The notes under the pieces: generated by a model
Database searches by the model: none
The model's input: only the letters and a program-made list of their open reading frames with translations
What the model was told of the DNA's origin: nothing
Position numbers and translations under genes: made by a program
NCBI RefSeq assembly: GCF_017654505.1
Contig: NC_054534.1
Coordinates: 18,735,693 to 18,799,692, forward strand
Direction: 5' to 3'
DNA length: 64,000 nucleotides
Source: Polyodon spathula
Lineage: Eukaryota > Chordata > Actinopteri > Acipenseriformes > Polyodontidae
Shown: positions 8,730 through 62,383 of the stretch, one piece after another
Position numbering within the stretch: the first letter of the stretch is position 1
How the letters are laid out: each line of letters opens with the position of its first letter

Positions 8730-10224
8730 GTTTTCAAGGTGTACTTTTGATGTACATTTCACCATGTATGTACATTTTAGAAATGCAAGCCTTTTATTTC
8801 GTGCTTGCCAGAGAACTTGGCTCCCCACTTTAACACCTCTTGTGCATTTGCACTCCTGCAGGGTCAGAGAGGAAAGTAAACCAAGGGTTGTTTTCCTCCT
8901 TGCTCTTCAGTTACAAATACGAGCCAGGTGCTCGACCAATCCAGGCAGGAACACCCCTTAGTTTAAGCTAGGCACTTAAATCCAGGGTTAAGTTGCTTGA
9001 TAACGTCGTTGTTTACTGTAAGTTATTGGTTGCAAAAGGCAACATTCGAATTGGGAATTTCTTACTTTGTAGAAACATTGAGAAAAGATGTATCAGAGAA
9101 AAAAAGTTAGGTATTTTGTGTGTTACTAAGTGCGGTTCTGAGAAAAGACAATTATTACTATTTCATTAGCTGTAATACTCTCCTTCAATAAAATTTAGAC
9201 AGTACTTTGAAAGAAATAAAAGGCTGTCTAGGAATGTGAGCAGAGTGTTGTGCAAATCAGTGTGTGTGTGTGCATGAGCTGGAATGACACAATTATTATA
9301 CTGTCCCCTGTTGTATGTGATGTGCAGATTTGGAAGGACAAAATTGTGCGTCTCGTTTTTAATAACAATTTGGAGAAAAATACTTTTAAAATGTTGCCTG
9401 TAATGTCATGATGACAAATACAAAATTGAATACAAGATCCAGATATTATTGGAAGGGACATACTCTTGGCCTTGTTCCTACGGAAACGTAAATGAATGAA
9501 TTTATCACCAGAAAATGAATTGCTTAACTCCAGCCTGCCAAGCCTGCTGGGCAGTGTGTATAGATGGTGGTACAGTGGTGGTAAAATAATAGACATTCTG
9601 CCAACTGTAGGTGCAGCTGCAAGCAAACTCAGTGCTCTAATTTCTGCTTGTTCAAAAGCATAATCAAAAGCTATGTATGTAGACAAAGATTTTATACTTG
9701 AATATGGAATATATACTATACAGGAATATTGCAATATTAATTAATGTATTTTTCCATTCAGTCAGTAGTGCAAATCCTACTAGTGACATACCAAGGAATT
9801 AATTATAGATCAGAAAGATACGGTAAGCTTTGACACTCCCCACTCCACCGACCCCTACATTACTGACTGATTTTCAGTTGGAATTGCAGCAGCATAGGTA
9901 AGATTTTTTTAAATATAAACTACTGTAAGAGTATACTGATTTTGACGCATCACAACTGTTCAACTGAAGTACTGCATTAGGGAAAAGATCCAGGGAATGT
10001 GCTGCTTTAGAAATCAATCTGAGTCGTTGAAGAGGTGTTCAAGCATTGTCCCTCATCACAGTGAAAGCACTGGTTACAGCAACTGAAAATGCTGCTGCCT
10101 TTTAACTAACATTACTGATGAGTATAGGAAACAAACTCAACAGAGAACATAATACATTTGACAGATTATCCGTTTGCCTGGCAGTAACTGATAGAATTTT
10201 TTGATGCCAAAGCTTTAGACCGAT

Positions 10225-10926
10225 TGTAACAGAAAGACGTTGGTTCTTGGTGGTAAATCTCCCTCCCGACTTGTGAGGGCACTAAGTAACGGGAAAAGAA
10301 TACTTTGGACTACTTGACCTAACAATTCGTTCCGAGGGTTACAAGGAAGTCTTGTTGTAGAAAAGAAACAGAGCTTCGGTACATTAACTCATTGACCCGG
10401 AGGGCAAATGATGTGGCAGCCGCGGATCATAAAAAGCAGCTGCAATCGTTTACCAAGGGTCATGAGTGACGGTGTAAATAGGGGTTGAAGCGCTGTTATC
10501 TGTTCCTTCGTTTCGGTTTTGTTATTGACCTGAAAGGACCTGTACTGTTGGTGAAATAAATAGTAAGTGTTTGTTAGTACTGTCTATCGTTGAGTGTATT
10601 CACTAGACCAGAGGCCAGCACCAACCCGGAACAGCACTTCACTTGTACCACTGTAAAACTGTATCGCACCACAATCACTAATTCACGCACTAACCCGGAC
10701 TTGTATATGTGTTTTGTGTTTAATGTGGGGTTACAAGAACGGGACAATTATTTCGGGACCAGTTTGGGGGATTATAAATGTAAGTAATACACACCGCATT
10801 ATTATTTCCTGCTTTGCCATCAGGCACTGGACAAAAACAACTAATAAAAACAAACCTTTCCACCTGGATTACAACTGTCTGTCTGTTCTTTAATCACATG
10901 TACACTATTAACTGCTTTGCTACACA
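10225..10926 (+). mobile_element. Solo LTR-like element, family shared with 34079-34821
   Basis: A block that starts TGTAACAG and ends GCTACACA, the TG...CA form of retrotransposon LTRs. A TATA-like cataaaaagc lies near 10428 and an AATAAA near 10554, in the order expected for U3 then R on this strand. Its start (ggtaaatctccctcccgac, agggcactaagtaac) and its end (cacatgtacactattaac, gctttgct) match the element at 34079-34821 in opposite orientation. No clear target duplication is seen, and there is no internal coding region, so a solo LTR of Ty3/gypsy type is the best guess. Confidence 0.45.
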
Positions 10927-26640: not shown

Positions 26641-28361
26641 ACGTCATGGGTGCTCTTTTGAGGTGCATCATTGACTGACATTTGTACTGCGGCTAGCTGG
26701 GCTACTCCACATACATTCACAAGGTTCTACCAAATCAATGTGGTGGATCCCTCTATGCCTTCATTAGGCACAAGGGTACTTGTGGGTACATGCGCGCACA
26801 ACAAACACCAGGTGGCGAGTGAGGCGTTCCTTATATGCTGCCCGCTTATGCTCCCTCTCTAATGGCTCCAGTATACGTTCCCAAAAGTACTGGTTGATGG
26901 TCATCTTCGAATTGAAAGGGAACGTTAGGTTACTTGCCGTAACCTTGGTTCCCTGAAAGAGCAGATGACCACCAAACTTTGCGAGGTTGCATCACTCGCA
27001 TTCGCGGGTTCGATGCAAACGAAGTGGGCTCCGGAGCGACTACTTATTCCCTCGGCAGACGGGACAGAGGACATCACTCCACGGAGGGGCCTCTCTGCAG
27101 CTGTGACATAAAATGCTCAGCCAATACCTACCTAAGGCAGGCATTTCCCAAGAGCATTGGTTCCCTTGAAAAAGAGATTTTAATCTCACTGGGACTTTCC
27201 TGGTTAAAAGGTTAATAAAAAATAAAATTCAGATATATGGTCACTCACAATTTATATTGGAATTGCATATGCACACAATCCCTATTAATTCATTTTGAAT
27301 ACACAGAGTTCAGATTGCTTTCTTGTACCAGAGCTAAAAAGATGATGTGCTCAATTTCCTAAACTATTTATAATGAACTTTGTATATTTTTTACCCTCTT
27401 TTGTTGTATATCTTATTTTGGCAATAAAACTGCATTAAATTTACAAAAAAAAGCTTAGTTAAATATTATTTGCAAAAATGGGCTTTCTTAAATATTATTG
27501 GTCCTATTGGAGGTTGGTCATCATTTGAAACATCAGCTCTTAATTGAGCTTCACCTGCCTTTTTCCTATACGGTCTCCTTTTCCAGGTAGAGAAGAATTC
27601 TTATTTTAAAATGTTGACACTAACCGTGTCATGATATACAGCAAGGTCATTTACAGGGGTGAAAATCATTTTGAAAATTGGTACTAAATTGTTTTGAAAG
27701 TTTTGCACCAGAGAGACTGGTGCTAAATTATTAATCAAACCCCCTCACCACTTCCAACAGAGCATAAACCTTTTCACCTGTGCATGTGGATGAGTGTGGG
27801 TGGATCATGTGAGCAGTCCAGACTATCCTCATCAGTGGTTGCTAAGAAATTAAAACATAAAGAAATAAATCAGTGTAACATGGTGGCAGAATGTAATGCA
27901 CCCCTGGTTTACACTCCACAGGTCAGCCTCTGAGTATTCATTGGACCTTATATAGGAGCTTGCATATGCAGGTATTTATTTAAAAAAAACAAAGTGTTTA
28001 ATAATGAACCGGGTTGTCGTTGAGTCAGTATGCGAATGCAGCGTGATACAAAAAAATATATGAGAGATTAGTGACACAGACTTGTCAGTTCATTATTGTT
28101 AATTTATAGTTTTATATATTTTCTAAACATTTTATAACTAGTAAACTAAATGTTTACATGTTTAAAGTTTATTATTTTAATAAATGCAGCCCCAACCTTT
28201 TTCTGAATGTTCATTTTTCCAAAGTAATGTTCAGTTTGAAGTGAAATATAATTTATTATACTACATCCTTCACTAGTTTAGCCTTACTTATGTGCCCTTA
28301 GAAAGCAAACCATGTCCTAGAGCTGGTCATATACCAGAGCCCAATACCCTAACCACCAATG

Positions 28362-29193
28362 CAAACACTGTTGCAGCAGCAAAGGTCATTCAAAATGATC
28401 TAGACAAGATACAGAACTGGGCAGACACATGGCAAATGACATTTAAGAGAAAAGTGTAAGGTACTGCACGCAAGCAATACAAATGTGCTTATAAATATCA
28501 TGTGGGAGATACTGAAATTGAAGGAATCTATGAAAAAGACCTAGGAGTTTTTGTTGACTCAGAAATGTCTTCATTTAGACAATGTGGGGAAGCTATAAAA
28601 AAGGCCAACAAGATGCTTGGGTATATTGTGAAAAGTGTTGAATTTAAGTCAAGGGAAGTAATGTTAAAACTGTACAATGCATTAGTAAGACCTCATCTTG
28701 AATATTGTGTTTAGTTCTGGTCACCTCGCTACAAAAGGATATTGCTGCTCTAAAAAGAGTGCAAAGAAGAGCGACCAGAATTATTCCAGGTTTAAAAGGC
28801 ATTTCATCTGCAGACAGGCTGAAAGAATTGAATGTAGTCATTCTTGAACAAAGAAGACTATGCGGCGACCTGATTCAAGCAATCAAAATTCTAAAAGGTA
28901 TTGACAATGTCAATCCAGGGACTTTTACGACCTGAAAAAAGAATCAAGGACCAAGGGTCACAAATGGAGATTAGACAAAGGGGCATTTAAAACAGAAAAT
29001 AGGAGGCACTTTTTTATACAGAGAATTGTGAGGGTCTGGAACCAACTCCCCAGTAATGTTGTTGAAGCTGACACCCTGGGATCCTTCAAGAAGCTGCTTG
29101 ATGAGATTCTGGGATCAATAAGCTACTAACAACCAAACGAGCAAGATAGGCCGAATGGCCTCCTCTCGTTTGTAAATTTTCTTATGTTCTTAT
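28362..29193 (+). mobile_element. 5'-truncated CR1/L2-group LINE copy
   Basis: Matches the 3' part of the long LINE at 58.4-61.4 kb, starting at aacactgttgcagcagcaaa and running to the tail ttcttatgttcttat. It holds the C-terminal part of the reverse transcriptase ORF (YEKDLGVFVDSEMSS, VEFKSREVMLKLYNALVRPH), broken by a CAG to TAG change in the position of VQFWSP and by frameshifts. It is useful as a comparator because it keeps the coding end that the long copy loses to a premature stop. Confidence 0.9.
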
Positions 29194-34078: not shown

Positions 34079-34821
34079 TGTGGCAAAGTGGTTAACAGTG
34101 TACAGGTGCAGAAGTGATGCAGTGCTTAATTAGGAGACAAGACAGTGATAATCCAATTAGAAAGGCTTTTAATATTGTAATCCAGGTCTGGTGAACTCAA
34201 ACAATAATCCCAGGCAATACACAGCAATGTGTATTGCACTGTTCAAAATAAAGGGTTTGCAGTCCCAAATAATAAACACAGTCCAGTTACACACACAATA
34301 TACAAACACAGTCACCAGTCCTGGGTGCATGCTTGTGGTGCTGATACAATTATTATCATGACACAGGTGTAGTGATGTCCAGGTTCATTCTGGCCTCTGG
34401 TGACAGCTCTGGAACATGTTAGTGGTTCACTAATAACAAGAAGTAACAATTAGAGACCAGACAGAACAAACAAAACACTCACGTACGATATTTTTTTAAC
34501 ACAGGTCCTTCCGGGTCGTTTCCTTAACCATAAACAAAGGACCAGGTCACATCACTCCGTCCCCTATTTTTACCATCACTCTTGACCCCTTGGTAAACGA
34601 TTGCAACCGCTCCTCCAATCCGCAGCTGCAACATTGTTTCCCTTCTGGGTCGAAGAGTTATTGCACCGGAGTTCCGCCCCCTTTCTAGATGACTAACTTC
34701 CTTTTAATGGTGGGAATGAATTGTCAGGCTATTCGGTCTAGGGTACCCTGTTCCCTGTACTTAGCGCCCTCAGAGGTCGGGAGGGAGATTTGCCACCAAG
34801 AATCATTCTATTTCTGTCACA
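34079..34821 (-). mobile_element. Solo LTR-like element, inverted relative of 10225-10926
   Basis: Starts TGTGGCAAAG and ends CTGTCACA. It is flanked by near-identical 5-bp sequences, acaat (34074-34078) and ataat (34822-34826). Its right part (ttagcgccctcagaggtcgg, gagatttgccaccaag) is the reverse complement of the left part of 10225-10926, so this copy lies on the minus strand. There is no coding content. Ty3/gypsy-type solo LTR is the most likely class. Confidence 0.5.
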
Positions 34822-34893
34822 ATAATATATTGTGGTTGCAGGTAAAAAAAAAACTGTCAATGGGCATTAGAAAACAGCAGGGACACCTCCCCC

Positions 34894-36967: not shown

Positions 36968-38559
<1,592 letters not shown>

Positions 38560-38579
38560 ATAAAAACACCTGTCTCTGT

Positions 38580-39012
38580 GAGGTTCCTTGGTCAGGTAGT
38601 GGATTTCAAGCAAAGACTCAACCATGAAGACCAAGGAGCTTTCAAAACAAGTCAGGGATAAAGTCATTGAAAAGCACTGATCAGGAGAATGGTACACAGT
38701 CTACGCAATCATCAAAAAAGAGAAGGTGCATTGTACCATCCAGACACTGCCTAGGTCAGGCCGTCCCTCCAAATTGAGCAGCTGGGCAAGGAGGAAACTG
38801 GTGAGGGATGCCACTGGCTGAGATGGGAGAAAATGTGCATCAGTCAACAGTATCCAGAACACTTCACAAAAGTAGTCTGTATGGCAGGGTGACAAGAAGG
38901 AAGCCATTACTAAAAATAAGCCATCTCAAAGCCTGCATGGAGTTTGCAACAAAGCACCTGAGTGATCCTGCAAAAAATGAGGCAAAAGGTGTTGTGGTCA
39001 GACGAGACCAAA
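38580..39012 (+). pseudogene. Tc1-like transposase remnant, copy 2 (5' half)
   Basis: Belongs to the same subfamily as the copy at 53-54 kb. From an ATG at 38624 it reads MKTKELSKQVRDKV, then degenerate sequence with LPRSGRPSKLSSWARRK, then SRTLHKSSLYGRVTRRKPLL and KACMEFATKHLSDPA, and reaches the TGGTCAGACGAGACCAA site of the first catalytic Asp. Direct homology stops at about 39012. The expected continuation then appears as a non-reversed complement at 39025-39160. There is no 5' inverted repeat; the left end abuts Tc1 copy 1. Confidence 0.85.
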
Positions 39013-39024
39013 TTATAAATAATC

Positions 39025-39159
39025 ATTTTTACCGTTCGCAATGTACACCACCGTGTCTGGTTGTCCAATGTGTAGAGGGTTAGTCGTGGTAGGGATAGGT
39101 GAGTTCGTACGACCACCGTCGTAGTATACATACCCCTACGAAGAGGAGCTTCGGGACTG

Positions 39160-39160
<1 letters not shown>
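39025..39160. other. Plain (non-reversed) complement of Tc1 transposase sequence
   Basis: Neither strand of this segment resembles anything when read normally. Its base-by-base complement, kept in left-to-right order, aligns with Tc1 transposase DNA. Three 18-base pieces show it. 39077-39094 complements to cccaatcagcaccatccc (17/18 with 53718-53735). 39104-39121 complements to aagcatgctggtggcagc (17/18 with 53743-53760). 39129-39146 complements to gtatggggatgcttctcc (16/18 with 53766-53783). Order and spacing agree, and the segment follows directly where copy 2 stops. It ends at a (TA)n tract. Confidence 0.85.

Positions 39161-39241
<81 letters not shown>
39161..39241. repeat. (TA)n microsatellite
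   Basis: About 40 TA repeats directly after the complemented Tc1 segment. Confidence 0.95.
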
Positions 39242-39243
<2 letters not shown>

Positions 39244-40708
39244 TATAAATTCTAATTGAAAGTGCAATAAAACATGTAAATTCATCATTTATCATATTTA
39301 TGAAGTCTTGTAGTAATGCTCTTACTGAACAATAAGAAATTACACCCTTATGTGATTTCTAATTATTGTATATTAAATAATTCATGGTTTTAAAGTACAA
39401 CAAAATACTACACAATCTTACATTCAAGGAATACAGTATGAATATACTGGTCCTTGAGGAGTTGCAAGTCAGCCAAAGGAGACATATGTCAAAAACAATT
39501 TGGGAAAGGGGGTCTTGGTCTTTTTAAAGGTAGGGGGATCCACCTCTCCTATAGAATAATGGTACGCTCCTAAAAAGAGTGTGCTATATTCCAGAACGCT
39601 TTGCAATTGATAAGGTTGATTTCTGTATAAGGTCATGATACAAAAGAAGTTCAGTCACGTCATTTGAAGAAGACATTCCACATCATCTGCTTCTCTTCCC
39701 TTTCAATTTCGTATATTTTGAAAGAACATTCTATTTCAGTGATCTAAATAGATGCAGATCCTGATCTTACTGGTCTAAAATTCGACACAAGGCTGCTCTT
39801 TTACTGGTGCGGGAATATTAAGACAAAGCAGTCATATTTTAAGCTGCTGCTGTTAGATCCTAAGATCAAAATGCATTTATCTGAATTTGTGAAGTTTAGC
39901 ACAATAAATTTGCACAATATTTTTGCAGTTTTCCCATTCATGTCCCATGACTTTCTATGGTTTGCCATGTTTTTTTTTAATGCTTTACCTTAATTCTGTG
40001 AGCTTTACAATGCCTACCTATACTGCTTTCACTGTGATCTACTACACTTTGCTATGCTTATACCATGACACACTTTTATAAGGGCAAAAGAGCGGTAAAG
40101 GTAAACTGCACATTTTTTTCTACTTCTGTTAGATCATCTACACCACCTGTTAATGTACCTGTTTGTAGATTGACTTTCTGAGATTCTAAATTGTTTCACT
40201 GTAAAGACACTGCATGATCCAGGAGAAGTTTGTAGACTACCAAATTATTATGTTCGATTTTTTTTTATTATTGTACTTTTTTTTAATGGAAGGACGATAC
40301 ACTGTGCATCACACAATATTCATGAATGATCATAAATAATGATGTTTTCATCCGTCTTCATCATGACTGTCCAGACTAAAAAGTGGGACAGTTTGAAAAT
40401 AATTTGTTAAATAATAAATACATTTTAATTGAATTTAAACTGTATCCAAAATAGTAGAGATAAAAGGGGTAGAAGCTTCTAAAATGGTGATTGAAGTATT
40501 TGGTGTGTGTCAAATACATATTGTCTGAGTGCAGTGGCTTTTGATATGCTTTATTTCTGCCAAGGTATCTAAAGAATTATTTTAGCTAAATTCGTCCCCC
40601 ATCAGACTGCCAAGATATCACACAGCATTTACACTTAGTAAGAATTCTGTTGTGCCAACATTTTAACTTCAAACCTGAATAATAAAAAGAGCTAGGTGTT
40701 ATATACCA

Positions 40709-43952: not shown

Positions 43953-44389
43953 GGTGAGTTGCTTCACCATTCTGTTAAATAATGTTCATGCCTTGTTTAT
44001 TGCTGCTGCATTTTTTAGAGCATGTAGGGGTGATGTGTTAATTTTGTTTGACAGTTTGTTTGTTAACAATAGTTTGTCTGTTACTTTATTATTATAGATT
44101 ATTAGCATACACTTGCCTATTGCTTTTCTTTTACTTATTCAGTTAATATATTTTACTTATTTAGTTGATGCACATGCATCATGACAAGTAATACATATTT
44201 ATTTATTTATTGAGTTATGTCGTGTCTGATGGCTAACTCAGTCTTAGAGAACACATCAAGCTAGTAGCACTTTGCTTGCTTCCCAATGGGTATTCTTTTA
44301 GCCGGAGACTACTTTAATGCAATTAAACATTAACATAATGTTAAAAAAAAAAGTTTTCATAATTACAAATTCATTTCCACATAAACACC

Positions 44390-49997: not shown

Positions 49998-52900
49998 CAT
50001 AATATAACTAACAAAAAATAAAAAAAAACTGTTGTAAAAAAATTCAGCTTAAGTCGTCTGCACCATCACACATAAAATAAAGCAAGAGAAAGATATTCAC
50101 CGTTGGGCATTCATATTGTAAGATATTTGATTTAATACACTGCTTCAAGCAAACACATTTAAAATTAGATTATTTAAATGCAAAAAATAACTTTGGTAAA
50201 GGTACAGAAAGTACAACATGAATACAAATGTATTTATCTTTGTATATGTTGCCCTTTGTGAAAGAAAGAATGCTTTAAGTTGCTTGCAGACCCATAGAAG
50301 AATAATAAACAAGTACAAAATAGCCCCTCTTATTAATGCATGATGTAGTTATAGCTTTTGTAAATACACTTTAGCTAGAGCAATCTGATTTTCAAGAAAA
50401 ACTCCACCAGTATTCACAAAAATCCTAGTTTCTTATTGTATAATAAAAAAAAACATATACTATCTGCTGTCAAATTTTAAAAATTGAATTATTTCACATC
50501 AAAAATAAAAACTGTGCTTTATAAAGTGGAAAATGAAAGACCTTTCTACACCAAACTCCCTGAAAAGCTGTGTGCTGTGAACTCTTGAGAGCTTGCATTG
50601 TTTTAAGACTCCCACAGAACTACAGATCTGAGATAGCCTGATGTTTCACCATTTTCCATTTGCAAAAATTCCACTATAAATGCAGTGTTTTTTAAACACC
50701 AAATCTTAAGATTTTTGTATTACCAGTTAAAGCATCATCTTACGGCCATCCACTTCCTCCCCTAGAAATTTCAGGCCAAAACTCCAAACTTTGTCAGCTC
50801 TAGGCCTCTTAAAAAATGGTCTTAAAAACCTCTGACTGGAACGAATTCGACAACCTCAAGAGATAGTTACCCTACAAGACCATCCATGCAAAATGTCATG
50901 CCAGTCCATTTAACAAGGTCAAAATTATTAAAGTGCAAAAATTTGTGTATAGCCTACTCAACCCTAAATGCGGTGGTAAAACGCCACTATAATGAACAAT
51001 TCAGTTTATACTGTAATACCTGGCAGTATTTAGAGTAGAATTTAATCTGTGAGTAGAAGCGCAGCAAAGTTTACATTTTTATATAAGAAAGGTAAGGCAT
51101 ATACTTTATAGGTGCACATAAATCAGCTAAAACAACAAGATCTTATGAAAACCAGTACTTCAAATGTGCCTCTGTATTGACTCTGATTAGCAAATTCAGA
51201 CTAACGAACATCAACAAATACAGAGAAAAATAATTTTATCTAATAAGGTACCTTACTGGTCCTGATTTATTCGTGCTCTGGTTGTCTGAATGTTTGACTT
51301 CTTAAATGTCGCACTAACTTTCTGTTCCTGTAGTCTGCACTACTGAACGCACAAGTTATTTCCCGCAGGCAAAAAAAAAAAAAAAAGGTCCTGAATAAGA
51401 ATCCCTGGACAGTCTGCCCCGCCTTTGAGCAGGACAGCCAGCTTGTTATACTTTTGATTAGCTTGGTGTGCTTTCCAAAAGATTATTTCATAACCCGAAT
51501 TGATGGCTGCTCTGTACTACTGCGTACCAGTAACCGAGAGTTAAATTAACTTAATATTCTTCTCAGGAGTCATTTACTTGCCTGGTGCCGGTATGGTTCC
51601 AACTACCATTCATCTAACTTGTTTTTTTGTATACTCAGAGTCGTTGCTCTACCCTGCGGACGCCATTGTATGTTTGTATGTATGTGTGTGCATCTCCTGA
51701 ACAACATTATATGCCTGTCAGCCTAGAAACACTTTTCTCTTAATTACTTTCCAGATTGCAAATTCTGTCAACTGCACCACTTTCGCTGAACACCTAATCT
51801 AATTCCAACATTTAGTTAAATGATTTAATGGGACTAATCACCATGCACCATGTTTTTGCAGAATGAATTGTAGTGTCTACATCCATGTCTCTCCAGTGAA
51901 TGGAAATATGTTAAAAAAAAAAATAAAAAATTAAAAAAATCATCAACCGGTGACTGTGAGTAATATTGATGTGTTTGCTCTTTTTCAAGCTCTACAATAG
52001 TAGGTTTCTCAAAGAGAGGTTTATCAGCAGTGCAGAATTATTCTGTTACTTCAACTCATACTATGCCTCTTGCATCCATTATCTCTTGCCTAGTCCAAAA
52101 TGTATCCTATCTACCTTGGCACCTTGAGAAATTTCCATTCTGTCTCCTGTACTTTTCTTTCCAATCATGAATTCAAATCCAGGAAGGATAGTCAATCCAT
52201 AGAGCAAGCATATGTAATTATATACTGCAGATGATGTAGTGATTCAGTCCAATATTTGAAATGTATAATTCACTGCACTCATAAAAGCATTTTCCAAAAC
52301 AACTGTCTTCTTGACACTTATAGTTTGATCTCAGAATGTATTATTTTTAATGTTACATGTTTTTAAATGTTATTTAAATTAGGCCCTGTGGCAGGGCACA
52401 AAAGCCCTGCTGTTAAATTAATTATTTTGCTTAATATGATATGTTGTATTTAAAGAATATATTTTTGCTTTGTGTGTTGTTGGTAGTTAATTCCTATCTC
52501 TCCCAAAAACATGTAAGAATCATGGGGTTTCCATGCGAGTTTTTTTTTTTAACTCGAGGACATTTACATGAGAAAAATGTCTCATGTAAAATGCTTTTTT
52601 GGGTTTCCATTCGCTCAGTTTATTTTACTGGACTAAACCAGGCTTTTCACCCGACGTCATGCAAATGAATTGGAAAGGTGGGGGTTGATATGTAAATTAG
52701 CAATGCGAAAAGTACTCGTGCTGTTTTTGTAGATTACTAGTGAACTTTTGTGGACAAGTGGTTTCCATGTGCATAGAACTGGTACACGAGTGACTCTAAG
52801 CTGCTGTATTAAAGCAAAATACAGTTAGCCCTCTTTATAAGCCTGGTAAGGGTCATGGGAAAAAAGGGCAATAAGTGAGAGTGTTGTTATAGTGAGCGTA

Positions 52901-53012: not shown

Positions 53013-54235
53013 CAGTTGTGTAAGTATTCAACCCCTTTGCTACTGCAGTCCTAAATCAGCTCAAGAGCAAATGATTTGTTTGAAAGATCACAAAATTATT
53101 GAAATGGTTTCAGTCTGTGTGTACTCAAAGTGGTTTAACTTATAGATCATTTTCCTCAGGTATATAAAGACTTTCAAGCTGCAACTCACATAGTGATCCA
53201 ACAAAGCAACCATGAAGACTAAGGAGCTTTCGAAACAAGTCAGGGATAAAGTGGTAAAGAGGCACAGAGCAGGACAAGGGTACATGAACATTTCAAAGGT
53301 GCTGATTTTCAAACACAGCACAGGGAAGTTCATCATTAAGAAGTGGAAGATGCATCATACCATCCAGACACTACCCAGATCAGGTCACCTCCTAAACCGA
53401 ACAGCCGGGCAAGCAGGAAACTGGTTTGGGATGTCATTCTGAAGCAAACAACGAACTTGAGAGATCTGCAAAGTTTTATCTCTGAGATGGGAGTCAGTGT
53501 TCACACATCAGCAATAAGCTGGTCCCTACACAAAGCTGGCCTGTATGGACGGGTGGCAAGAAAGAAGCCATTACTCAAAAAGCCTCATCTTAAAGCACAT
53601 ATGGAGTTTGCGAAAAAGCATATAGATGATACTGCAGACATATGGAAAAAGGTTTTGTGGTCAGACAAGTCTAAATTCCAAGTGATTCATCTGGCCCAAG
53701 CCCAACACTGCACATCACCCAATCAACACCATCCCAACTGTCAAGCATGGTGGTGGCAGCATCATGTATGGGGATGTTTCTCTCCAGCAGAGTCTGGGAA
53801 GCTTGTCAGGATAGAGGGGAGAATGGATGGTGCAAAGTACAGGCTAATCCTTGAGGAAAACCTGTTTGAGTCAACCAAGAATCTGGGGAAACTGGGGAGG
53901 AAATTCACATTTCAGCAGGACAATGACCCGAAGCACAAATCCAAAGACAAAGCCGCACTGGAGTGGTTGAACAAGAAGAGAATGTTCTTGAGTGGCCCAG
54001 TCAAAGGCCTGACTTTTATGGCGAGACTTGAAGATTGCAGTCCATCGACGATCCCAAACAAACTTATCAGAACTGCAGCAATTTTCCCTTGAAGAATGGG
54101 GAAAAATGTCACCATCCTCCTGTGCAAAGCTAGTAGAGACCTATCCAAAAAGACTCATAGCAGTAATTGCTGCAAATGTGCCTAGACCAAGTACTGACTT
54201 AAGGGTCTGAATACTTATGATTTACATACTTTTGC
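53013..54235 (+). mobile_element. Tc1-like DNA transposon, copy 3, degenerate
   Basis: Left end cagttgtgtaagtattcaac and right region gggtctgaatacttatga are imperfect inverted repeats around a transposase pseudogene of the same subfamily as the remnant at 38.6 kb. The right boundary is approximate. Confidence 0.85.
53212..54210 (+). pseudogene. Tc1-like transposase pseudogene (copy 3)
   Basis: Begins MKTKELSKQVRDKVVKRHRA with the helix-turn-helix part ([20 protein letters not shown]). A frameshift near 53390 then leads into a long open stretch with [47 protein letters not shown] and [16 protein letters not shown]. The first Asp (WSDKSK) and second Asp (QQDND) of the DDE triad are present. 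The third position is lost: a short deletion just after ARGPs equivalent, at about 54005-54015, removes the segment that should read N-P-I-E-N-L-W. The frame then shifts, and a last piece ([20 protein letters not shown]) ends near 54210. The element cannot move by itself. Confidence 0.9.
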
Positions 54236-59689: not shown

Positions 59690-61356
59690 TTACTTTTCAC
59701 AAGTTTTTACAAAGGAAGATACTGACAACATGCCCCACATGTCATCCAGTTCCTATCCAGTTTTAAATAACTTTAGCATAACTGAGGCAGAAGTGTTAAA
59801 GGGACTAGGAGCTCTTAAAATAAACAAATCCCCTGGGCCGGATGAGATCCTCCCAGTAGTACTCAAAGAAATGAAAGAAGTAATTTACAAACCGCTAACC
59901 AAGATCATGCAGCAGTCTCTTGACACAGGGGTGGTACCGACAGACTGGAAAATTGCAAACGTAATACCGATCCACAAAAAGGGAAACAAAACTGAACCAG
60001 GTAACTACAGACCAGTAAGCCTGACTTCTATTATATGCAAACTTATGGAAACTATAATAAGATCCAAAATGGAAAATTACCTATATGGTAACAGGATACT
60101 GGGAGACAGTCAACATGGTTTTAGGAAAGGGAGATCGTGTCTAACTAACTTGCTTGATTTTTTTGAGGATGCAACATCGATAATGGATAATTGCAAAGCA
60201 TATGACATGGTTTATTTAGATTTCCAGAAAGCTTTTGACAAAGTCCCGCACAAAAGATTAATTCTCAAACTGAACGCAGTTGGGATTCAAGGAAACACAT
60301 GCACATGGATTAGGGAGTGGTTAACATGTAGAAAACAGAAAGTACTGATTAGAGGAAAAACCTCAAAATGGAGTGTGGTAACCAGCGGTGTACCACAGGG
60401 ATCAGTATTAGGTCCTCTGCTATTCCTAATCTACATTAATGATTTAGATTCTGGTATAGTAAGCAAACTTGTTAAATTTGCAGACGACACAAAAGTAGGA
60501 GGAGTGGCAAACACTGTTGCAGCAGCAAAGGTCATTCAAAATGATCTAGACAAGATTCAGAACTGGGCAGACACATGGCAAATGACATTTAATAGAGAAA
60601 AGTGTAAGGTACTGCACGCAGGAAATAAAAATGTACATTATAAATATCATATGGGAGATATTGAAATTGGAGAAGGAATCTATGAAAAAGACCTAGGAGT
60701 TTTTGTTGACTCAGAAATGTCTTCATCTAGACAATGTGGGGAAGCTATAAAAAAGGCTAACAAGATGCTCGGATACATTGTGAAAAGTGTTGAATTTAAA
60801 TCAAGGGAAGTAATGTTAAAACTGTACAATGCACTAGTAAGACCTCATCTTGAATATTGTGTTCAGTTCTGGTCACCTCGCTATAAAAAAGATATTGCTG
60901 CTCTAGAAAGAGTGCAAAGAAGAGCGACCAGAATTATTCCGGGCTTAAAAGGCATGTCATATGCAGACAGGCTAAAAAAATTGAATCTGTTCAGTCTTGA
61001 ACAAAGAAGACTACGTGGCGACCTAATTCAAGCATTCAAAATTCTAAAAGGTATTGACAGTGTCGACCCAAGGGACTTTTTCAGCCTGAAAAAAGAAACA
61101 AGGACCAGGGGTCACAAATGGAGTTTAGAAAAAGGGGCATTCAGAACATAAAATAGGAGACACTTTTTTACACAGAGAATTGTGAGGGTCTGGAATCAAC
61201 TCCCCAGTAATGTTGTTGAAGCTGACACCCTGGGATCCTTCAAGAAGCTGCTTGATGAGATTTTGGGATCAATAAGCTACTAACAACCAAACGAGCAAGA
61301 TGGGCCGAATGGCCTCCTCTCGTTTGTAAACTTTCTTATGTTCTTATGTTCTTATG
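58400..61356 (+). mobile_element. CR1/L2-group LINE retrotransposon, nearly full ORF2
   Basis: An apurinic-type endonuclease followed by a reverse transcriptase and a 3' UTR ending in three TTCTTATG repeats (about 61333-61356), typical of the CR1/L2/Rex1 group in which the 3' tail is a short tandem repeat rather than poly(A). ORF1 is not found, so the copy is probably 5'-truncated close to the start of ORF2. The left boundary is approximate. Two lesions are visible: a frameshift at an A10 run (59661-59670) and a premature TAA at 61149-61151. The truncated copy at 28362-29193 is of the same family. Confidence 0.92.
59679..61151 (+). CDS. LINE ORF2, reverse transcriptase half (truncated C-terminus)
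   Basis: An open frame of 490 codons. It carries the reverse transcriptase blocks in order: SPGPDEILPVVLKEM, WKIANVIPIHKKGNKTEPG, NYRPVSLTSIICKLME, SQHGFRKGRSCLTNLLDFFE, MVYLDFQKAFDKVPHKRL (first catalytic Asp), VTSGVPQGSVLGPLLFLIYI, KFADDTKVGG (the FADD active site), then the thumb region YEKDLGVFVDSEMSS, FKSREVMLKLYNALVRPHLE, RRATRIIPGLKGMSY and RRLRGDLIQAFKILKG. It stops at FRT with TAA. In the 28-kb copy the same place is open and the frame goes on for about 50 more residues (RRHFF, VRVWNQLPSNVVEADTLGSF, LLDEILGSISY), so the stop here is a mutation. Confidence 0.9.
   Translation: MLNDYFSQVFTKEDTDNMPHMSSSSYPVLNNFSITEAEVLKGLGALKINKSPGPDEILPVVLKEMKEVIYKPLTKIMQQSLDTGVVPTDWKIANVIPIHKKGNKTEPGNYRPVSLTSIICKLMETIIRSKMENYLYGNRILGDSQHGFRKGRSCLTNLLDFFEDATSIMDNCKAYDMVYLDFQKAFDKVPHKRLILKLNAVGIQGNTCTWIREWLTCRKQKVLIRGKTSKWSVVTSGVPQGSVLGPLLFLIYINDLDSGIVSKLVKFADDTKVGGVANTVAAAKVIQNDLDKIQNWADTWQMTFNREKCKVLHAGNKNVHYKYHMGDIEIGEGIYEKDLGVFVDSEMSSSRQCGEAIKKANKMLGYIVKSVEFKSREVMLKLYNALVRPHLEYCVQFWSPRYKKDIAALERVQRRATRIIPGLKGMSYADRLKKLNLFSLEQRRLRGDLIQAFKILKGIDSVDPRDFFSLKKETRTRGHKWSLEKGAFRT

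Positions 61357-62306: not shown

Positions 62307-62383
<77 letters not shown>

Follow-up and report, generated by a model that had tools for sequence, protein, structure and literature searches.

Unreversed complement of Tc1 transposase sequence in the Polyodon spathula assembly, a probable assembly artefact

Letters rich in small indels, at sites such as (TA)n tracts and minisatellites, are typical of unpolished long-read fills or bridges in hybrid assemblies. According to the available sections of PMC8042750, the American paddlefish assembly (total 1.54 Gb; Chr1, 110.67 Mb) combined Platanus contigs from Illumina reads, DBG2OLC with PacBio reads and then Pilon, and these steps were followed by SSPACE-LongRead, SSPACE, GapCloser, GapFiller, Pilon again and Hi-C. 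An exchange of A with T and of C with G has been described by Seligmann as "swinger" DNA in nuclear and mitochondrial genes, especially ribosomal ones, an example being the 16S gene of the Kamimuria wangi mitogenome record (available sections of PMC4942731), and related passages are present in the accessible part of PMC7027195. The parts covered of the Kamimuria wangi paper (PMC3900512) make no mention of such an exchange.

Here we describe a patch of the paddlefish assembly whose letters, once complemented, are those of a Tc1/mariner transposase. The element is a Sleeping Beauty-like Tc1/mariner transposon of fish, which is itself nothing new here and is present at this site as a fragment, the Tc1 copy B. 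The letter relation of the patch is that of swinger DNA, which also switches sharply from normal sequence, but the swinger literature reads the exchange as biological polymerisation (PMC4942731, in the sections available), whereas here the error spectrum and the recurrence of the fault point to assembly. An unpolished long-read fill or bridge is alike in its small-indel-rich letters, in its sharp change of quality and in its location at (TA)n and minisatellite sites; the patch differs from it in having letters that are, in addition, complemented but not reversed.

Plain-complement Tc1 sequence at 39 kb

The window, i.e. the whole stretch of 64,000 nucleotides that was analyzed (C1:18735693-18799692), contains the following features relevant to the patch.

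37085-38558, forward strand: Tc1 copy A (~37.6 kb), in normal orientation, with terminal inverted repeats at 37085-37135 and 38508-38558; comparison copy.
38600-39014, forward strand: Tc1 transposase copy B, in normal orientation, of a young subfamily; its alignment to Tc1 loci of the genome extends to 39014.
39010-39020, forward strand: left copy of the 11-bp direct repeat AAATTATAAAT, spanning the left junction.
39015-39148, forward strand: plain-complement patch, bases complemented and order kept, with a right end that is uncertain between 39148 and 39161.
39162-39240, no strand: (AT)39.5 tract, adjoining the patch.
39240-39250, forward strand: right copy of AAATTATAAAT, where the (AT)n tract ends.
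53207-54218, forward strand: Tc1 copy C (~53 kb), in normal orientation; comparison copy.

Copy B represents the middle of a Tc1 transposase copy, its 5' third being absent, and a Polyodon spathula transposase (P0005) matches it with 87% identity over 54 residues. It has neither of its element ends, since on the left it adjoins the end of copy A (38558-38600) and on the right it stops at the patch (39148), and misjoins around copy B may account for the missing ends. To its right, at 39015-39148, the Tc1 transposase sequence goes on as a complement that is not reversed, and it keeps the register of the normal Tc1 letters to the left. When the stretch 39013-39161 was complemented, its local alignment scores were 91 against copy C and 61 against copy A, whereas the direct, reverse and reverse-complement readings scored between 16 and 22 against the same copies. 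Dinucleotide shuffles, 1000 per copy and taking the best of the four readings, reached at most 30 (copy C) and 31 (copy A), so that the control suggested in the original prediction speaks against a chance resemblance. An ordinary inversion, or a template switch, predicts the reverse complement, but that reading scored only 17-22 in the patch (complement, 61-91), and 95 against 380 in the minisatellite patch described below. Chance and inversion were rejected on these scores, and we regard the probability of either as negligible.

A blastn comparison of the complemented window with the window itself aligned 39070-39145 to 53711-53782 (85.5% identity, E 6e-16). The 18-base blocks at 39077, 39104 and 39129, which had been proposed to match the 53-kb copy when complemented, did match 53013-54235 at 17, 17 and 16 of 18 positions, with the spacings of 25 and 23 bases given for that copy, and in the direct, reverse-complement and reversed readings they reached at most 12 of 18. 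The whole genome (1,541,705,134 bases) was then queried with 149 patch letters. As written they had a single match, namely the patch itself, which bears out the claim that about 135 letters match nothing. Complemented, they yielded 864 first-look candidates, and all 40 of those that were scored matched at 80-84% identity; 38 of these matches started at query position 16-17 (39028-39029) and two at position 6, all of them ended at position 135-136 (39147-39148), and a more permissive alignment stretched the complemented match back to 39018. The 20 genomic loci that were fetched align as one family continuing copy B. Local alignment, blastn and the genome search thus agree that the unreversed complement reported at about 39 kb is real.

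At the protein level, the complement frame reads NGKRYMWWHRP...HHPYPLKHAGGSI, in which the transposase core is recognisable by eye. The two complement-frame peptides gave no Pfam hit, and the same piece of copy A likewise gave no real one. A tblastn search with six Tc1 proteins (E 0.01) found no match in the complemented window, an outcome that the abundance of small indels would account for. Scans with a conserved Tc1 block as the pattern detected nothing in viral contigs (normal and complement readings) or in genome contigs (normal reading). As a control, 20 Tc1 loci compared with themselves produced 1047 normal rows, 20 of them self-matches, and a single plain-complement row, which is a 24-bp mirror.

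At the left junction, the normal reading stops at 39014, close to the end predicted at about 39012, and the complement reading is underway by 39018, so that the start predicted for the patch (39025) was 7-10 bases late. A two-orientation pair-HMM placed the switch at 39012-39025, with a median of 39016. In the coordinates of one genomic copy, L028, raw position 39014 corresponds to 1485 and complemented position 39018 to 1491, a difference of two bases. Because these coordinates run on from the raw part, the patch is a complement in place, as had been predicted from the restored position and order of the Tc1 sequence, and the left junction has next to nothing duplicated or lost. The letter exchange is exact and the switch is sharp, as in the A with T and C with G exchange of swinger DNA.

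At the right, clear homology extends to 39148 and to 39153 at most, and the (AT)39.5 tract that follows reads alike when complemented, so that it gives no clue to its own orientation. AAATTATAAAT occurs only twice in 264 kb (the window plus 100 kb on each side), and its two copies bracket the patch and the (AT)n tract. A return to the normal orientation before the (TA)n tract was suspected since the raw letters around 39150 resemble Tc1, but it was rejected: only 43 of 2000 sampled pair-HMM paths switched back, and the raw tail did not stand out from 5000 shuffles, 17% of which reached its score.

Error spectrum and CpG content of the patch

To describe the errors of the patch, we used as reference the majority of 20 genomic copies, which were the best 20 of the 40 scored. 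Over 124 aligned bases, the patch differs from this majority by 12 substitutions (seven of them transversions) and nine indel events, consisting of six insertion events (12 bases) and three single-base deletions. The drop in quality is confined to the Tc1 patch, as the adjoining raw sequence at 38816-39012 shows four substitutions and one inserted base in 196, and the 20 natural copies show 74 substitutions (52 transitions) and only two indel events in 2523 bases, an indel rate that is a low estimate because these copies are the best matches. Copy B is less clean in its part 38600-38815 than at 38816-39012, and over the wider raw stretch 38600-39012 there are 15 substitutions in 394 bases and two large deletions amounting altogether to 77 bases. 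Copies A and C are older (85% identical to the majority, compared with 81% for the patch), and they carry 19 and 17 substitutions with zero and one indel events, respectively. A jump in small indels at the very point where the orientation switches is not expected of transposon ageing, and from the letters it resembles a raw long read. PacBio errors are insertion-rich; the substitution load of the patch (12 in 124) is above that usual in PacBio reads, a point against such a source.

The CpG record gives a second view of the history of the patch. Vertebrate DNA loses CpG, and the observed/expected CpG ratio is 0.36 in the whole window and 0.14 in the normal part of copy B. As written, the patch core (39029-39146) contains nine CpG (ratio 1.20) and one GpC (0.13), and when complemented it shows a CpG ratio of 0.13 and a GpC ratio of 1.20, like normal copy B. 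Its excess of CpG over GpC, eight, is the highest among all 118-bp stretches of the window (the next is six), and two other places in the window hold nine or more CpGs. Because the complemented core is CpG-poor like copy B and the core as written is CpG-rich, the CpG loss seems to have taken place in the normal orientation, before the flip, which seems to have undergone no decay of its own.

These data bear on the possibility that the patch is real DNA, that is, that a polymerase or repair event wrote the plain complement in place by parallel-strand or swinger copying. The letter relation, the sharp switch and the register would all fit such an event, and comparable stretches of database records have been described as swinger DNA (PMC4942731, available sections). 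Nevertheless, it has no known chemistry, the patch contains small indels like those of raw reads and the adjoining Tc1 sequence almost none, and the CpG decay to be expected since the flip is not seen. The indels and the CpG pattern thus constitute indirect evidence against production of the patch by polymerisation in the organism, and we consider such an event very unlikely.

Further plain-complement patches in the surrounding 264 kb

A scan of the whole assembly for other segments with plain-complement matches had been proposed. It was carried out on 264 kb, i.e. the window plus 100 kb on each side, which was complemented and compared with itself and with the Tc1 loci, and it revealed two further in-register patches and one possible further pair.

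C1:18860076-18860341 (L019:384-649), outside the window: second patch, 266 bp long and lying within a GC-rich minisatellite with a 27-bp unit.
C1:18668750-18668992 (L006:3058-3300), outside the window: third patch, in a repeat related to that of L024 and followed by (TA)n.

The minisatellite at C1:18859979-18860495 is at first in normal orientation, turns into a plain complement over 18860076-18860341, a stretch that includes ten odd bases, and then returns to normal. Against a perfect array, its middle scored 380 as complement, 95 as reverse complement, 61 as reverse and 24 in the direct reading. As in the Tc1 patch, where it is held in the coordinates of L028, the register with the flanks is held here in the unit phase, which goes from 26 to 0 across the left edge, where there are four odd bases, and from 21 to 20 across the right one. 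Indels in this patch amount to ten events in 255 bases, a mild excess over the flanks (zero in 97 and four in 148). In the third case, the repeat is related to L024 in the normal way up to window coordinate -66973 (77% over 78), this relation stops about 31 bases before the plain complement starts, and the latter runs from -66942 to -66700 (71% over 244, E 3e-16) and is followed by (TA)n. The possible further pair consists of C1:18892123-18892193 (L022) and L030:2765-2839, 80% identical over 75 bases, and either of the two sides may be the flipped one.

Other plain-complement rows were discarded: those at 50478-50534 and 44323-44371 are mirrors, that joining 2603-2633 to 62339-62369 involves microsatellites, and that joining 2543-2620 to 106495-106572 was set aside, its window side being a CA/TG microsatellite.

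Testing in this way depends on a normal relative in the comparison set, which exists for just 23.6% of the 264 kb, so that more patches may be hidden. The fault looks systematic, with three patches in 264 kb of one chromosome of which about a quarter is testable by homology. All these sites are hard to assemble, (TA)n twice and a GC-rich minisatellite once, and the recurrence at such sites is a further argument against real DNA. We give very little credence to the wider proposal that plain complements exist in paddlefish DNA and that replication or repair writes parallel letters at (TA)n and minisatellite sites.

Composition was also explored as a detector. A k-mer polarity score ranked 39030 (or 39002) first among the fixed-length stretches of the window, but segmentation of the window put 18.2 kb first (20 versus 17.5-17.9) and also flagged ordinary repeats, and composition alone was rejected on these grounds. 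Among the 17 segments of the 264 kb that scored at least 8.5, three had plain-complement relatives (39.0 kb, -66.9 kb and one GT microsatellite), seven had raw relatives only and seven had neither. The segment 18213-18496 has the top complement-like score in both the window and the 264 kb (18-20). In the set, its sole relative is a weak raw one (L025, 72% over 69 bases), none being a complement, and the segment may be either a further patch or a repeat rich in CpG. The family at 10223-10897 and 34122-34823 (10.2/34.4 kb) has complement-like composition and ordinary orientation, and it was rejected as an ordinary dispersed repeat, which retains CpG and has about ten further matches in the 264 kb. 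The window also contains a 0.84-kb direct duplicate (28361-29193 and 60507-61347, 93% identical), and 5000 N at C1:18730693-18735692 lie directly to its left, possibly an assembly gap.

Origin and significance of the plain-complement letters

Because the same fault recurs nearby and the patch bears damage like that of sequencing errors, we regard the patch as almost certainly an assembly mistake rather than new biology. Judging from the letters, it is highly probable that the patch is an artefact, in which a PacBio read from the opposite strand would have bridged a gap after being reversed without complementing. The contigs built from Illumina data would have stopped within Tc1 copy B on one side and at the (TA)n tract on the other, the gap would have been closed with part of a PacBio read that was uncorrected and came from the opposite strand, and a reverse-complementing step would have reversed the letters of this read and left them uncomplemented. 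A reverse complement that is reversed is a plain complement, and such letters would therefore come to lie in place and in register, as they do in all three cases. Since short reads cannot be mapped to letters of this kind, short-read polishing would then fail and the raw-read errors would stay. We know of no documented bug that produces a plain complement; Perl list-context or letter-case bugs may be the cause. No paper on plain-complement errors was among those listed for the open-licence literature.

A handling error at a later stage, apart from gap filling, such as a change made to the finished sequence when it was edited, masked or converted, would result in an in-place complement as well, but it would explain neither the excess of small indels in the flipped Tc1 letters nor the location of the flips at (TA)n and minisatellite sites, and we hold it to be unlikely, if less so than an event in the living cell.

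The original prediction had stated that no copying mechanism yields an unreversed complement and had named a consensus or data-handling error as the likeliest cause, and the small-indel jump, the CpG pattern and the two additional in-register patches agree with this view. Its fallback, parallel-strand copying as new biology, gains nothing from these results, and even as a claim the plain-complement relation is not undescribed, because it is in print as swinger DNA (PMC4942731, in the sections available).

Plain-complement letters are invisible to ordinary similarity searches, would resist polishing and can disrupt both gene models and the annotation of repeats. Assembly pipelines could include, at little cost, a self-comparison of the plain complement as a check. 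As biology, the patch very probably means nothing; as an artefact, it offers a concrete non-biological route to sequences that have been published as swinger DNA.
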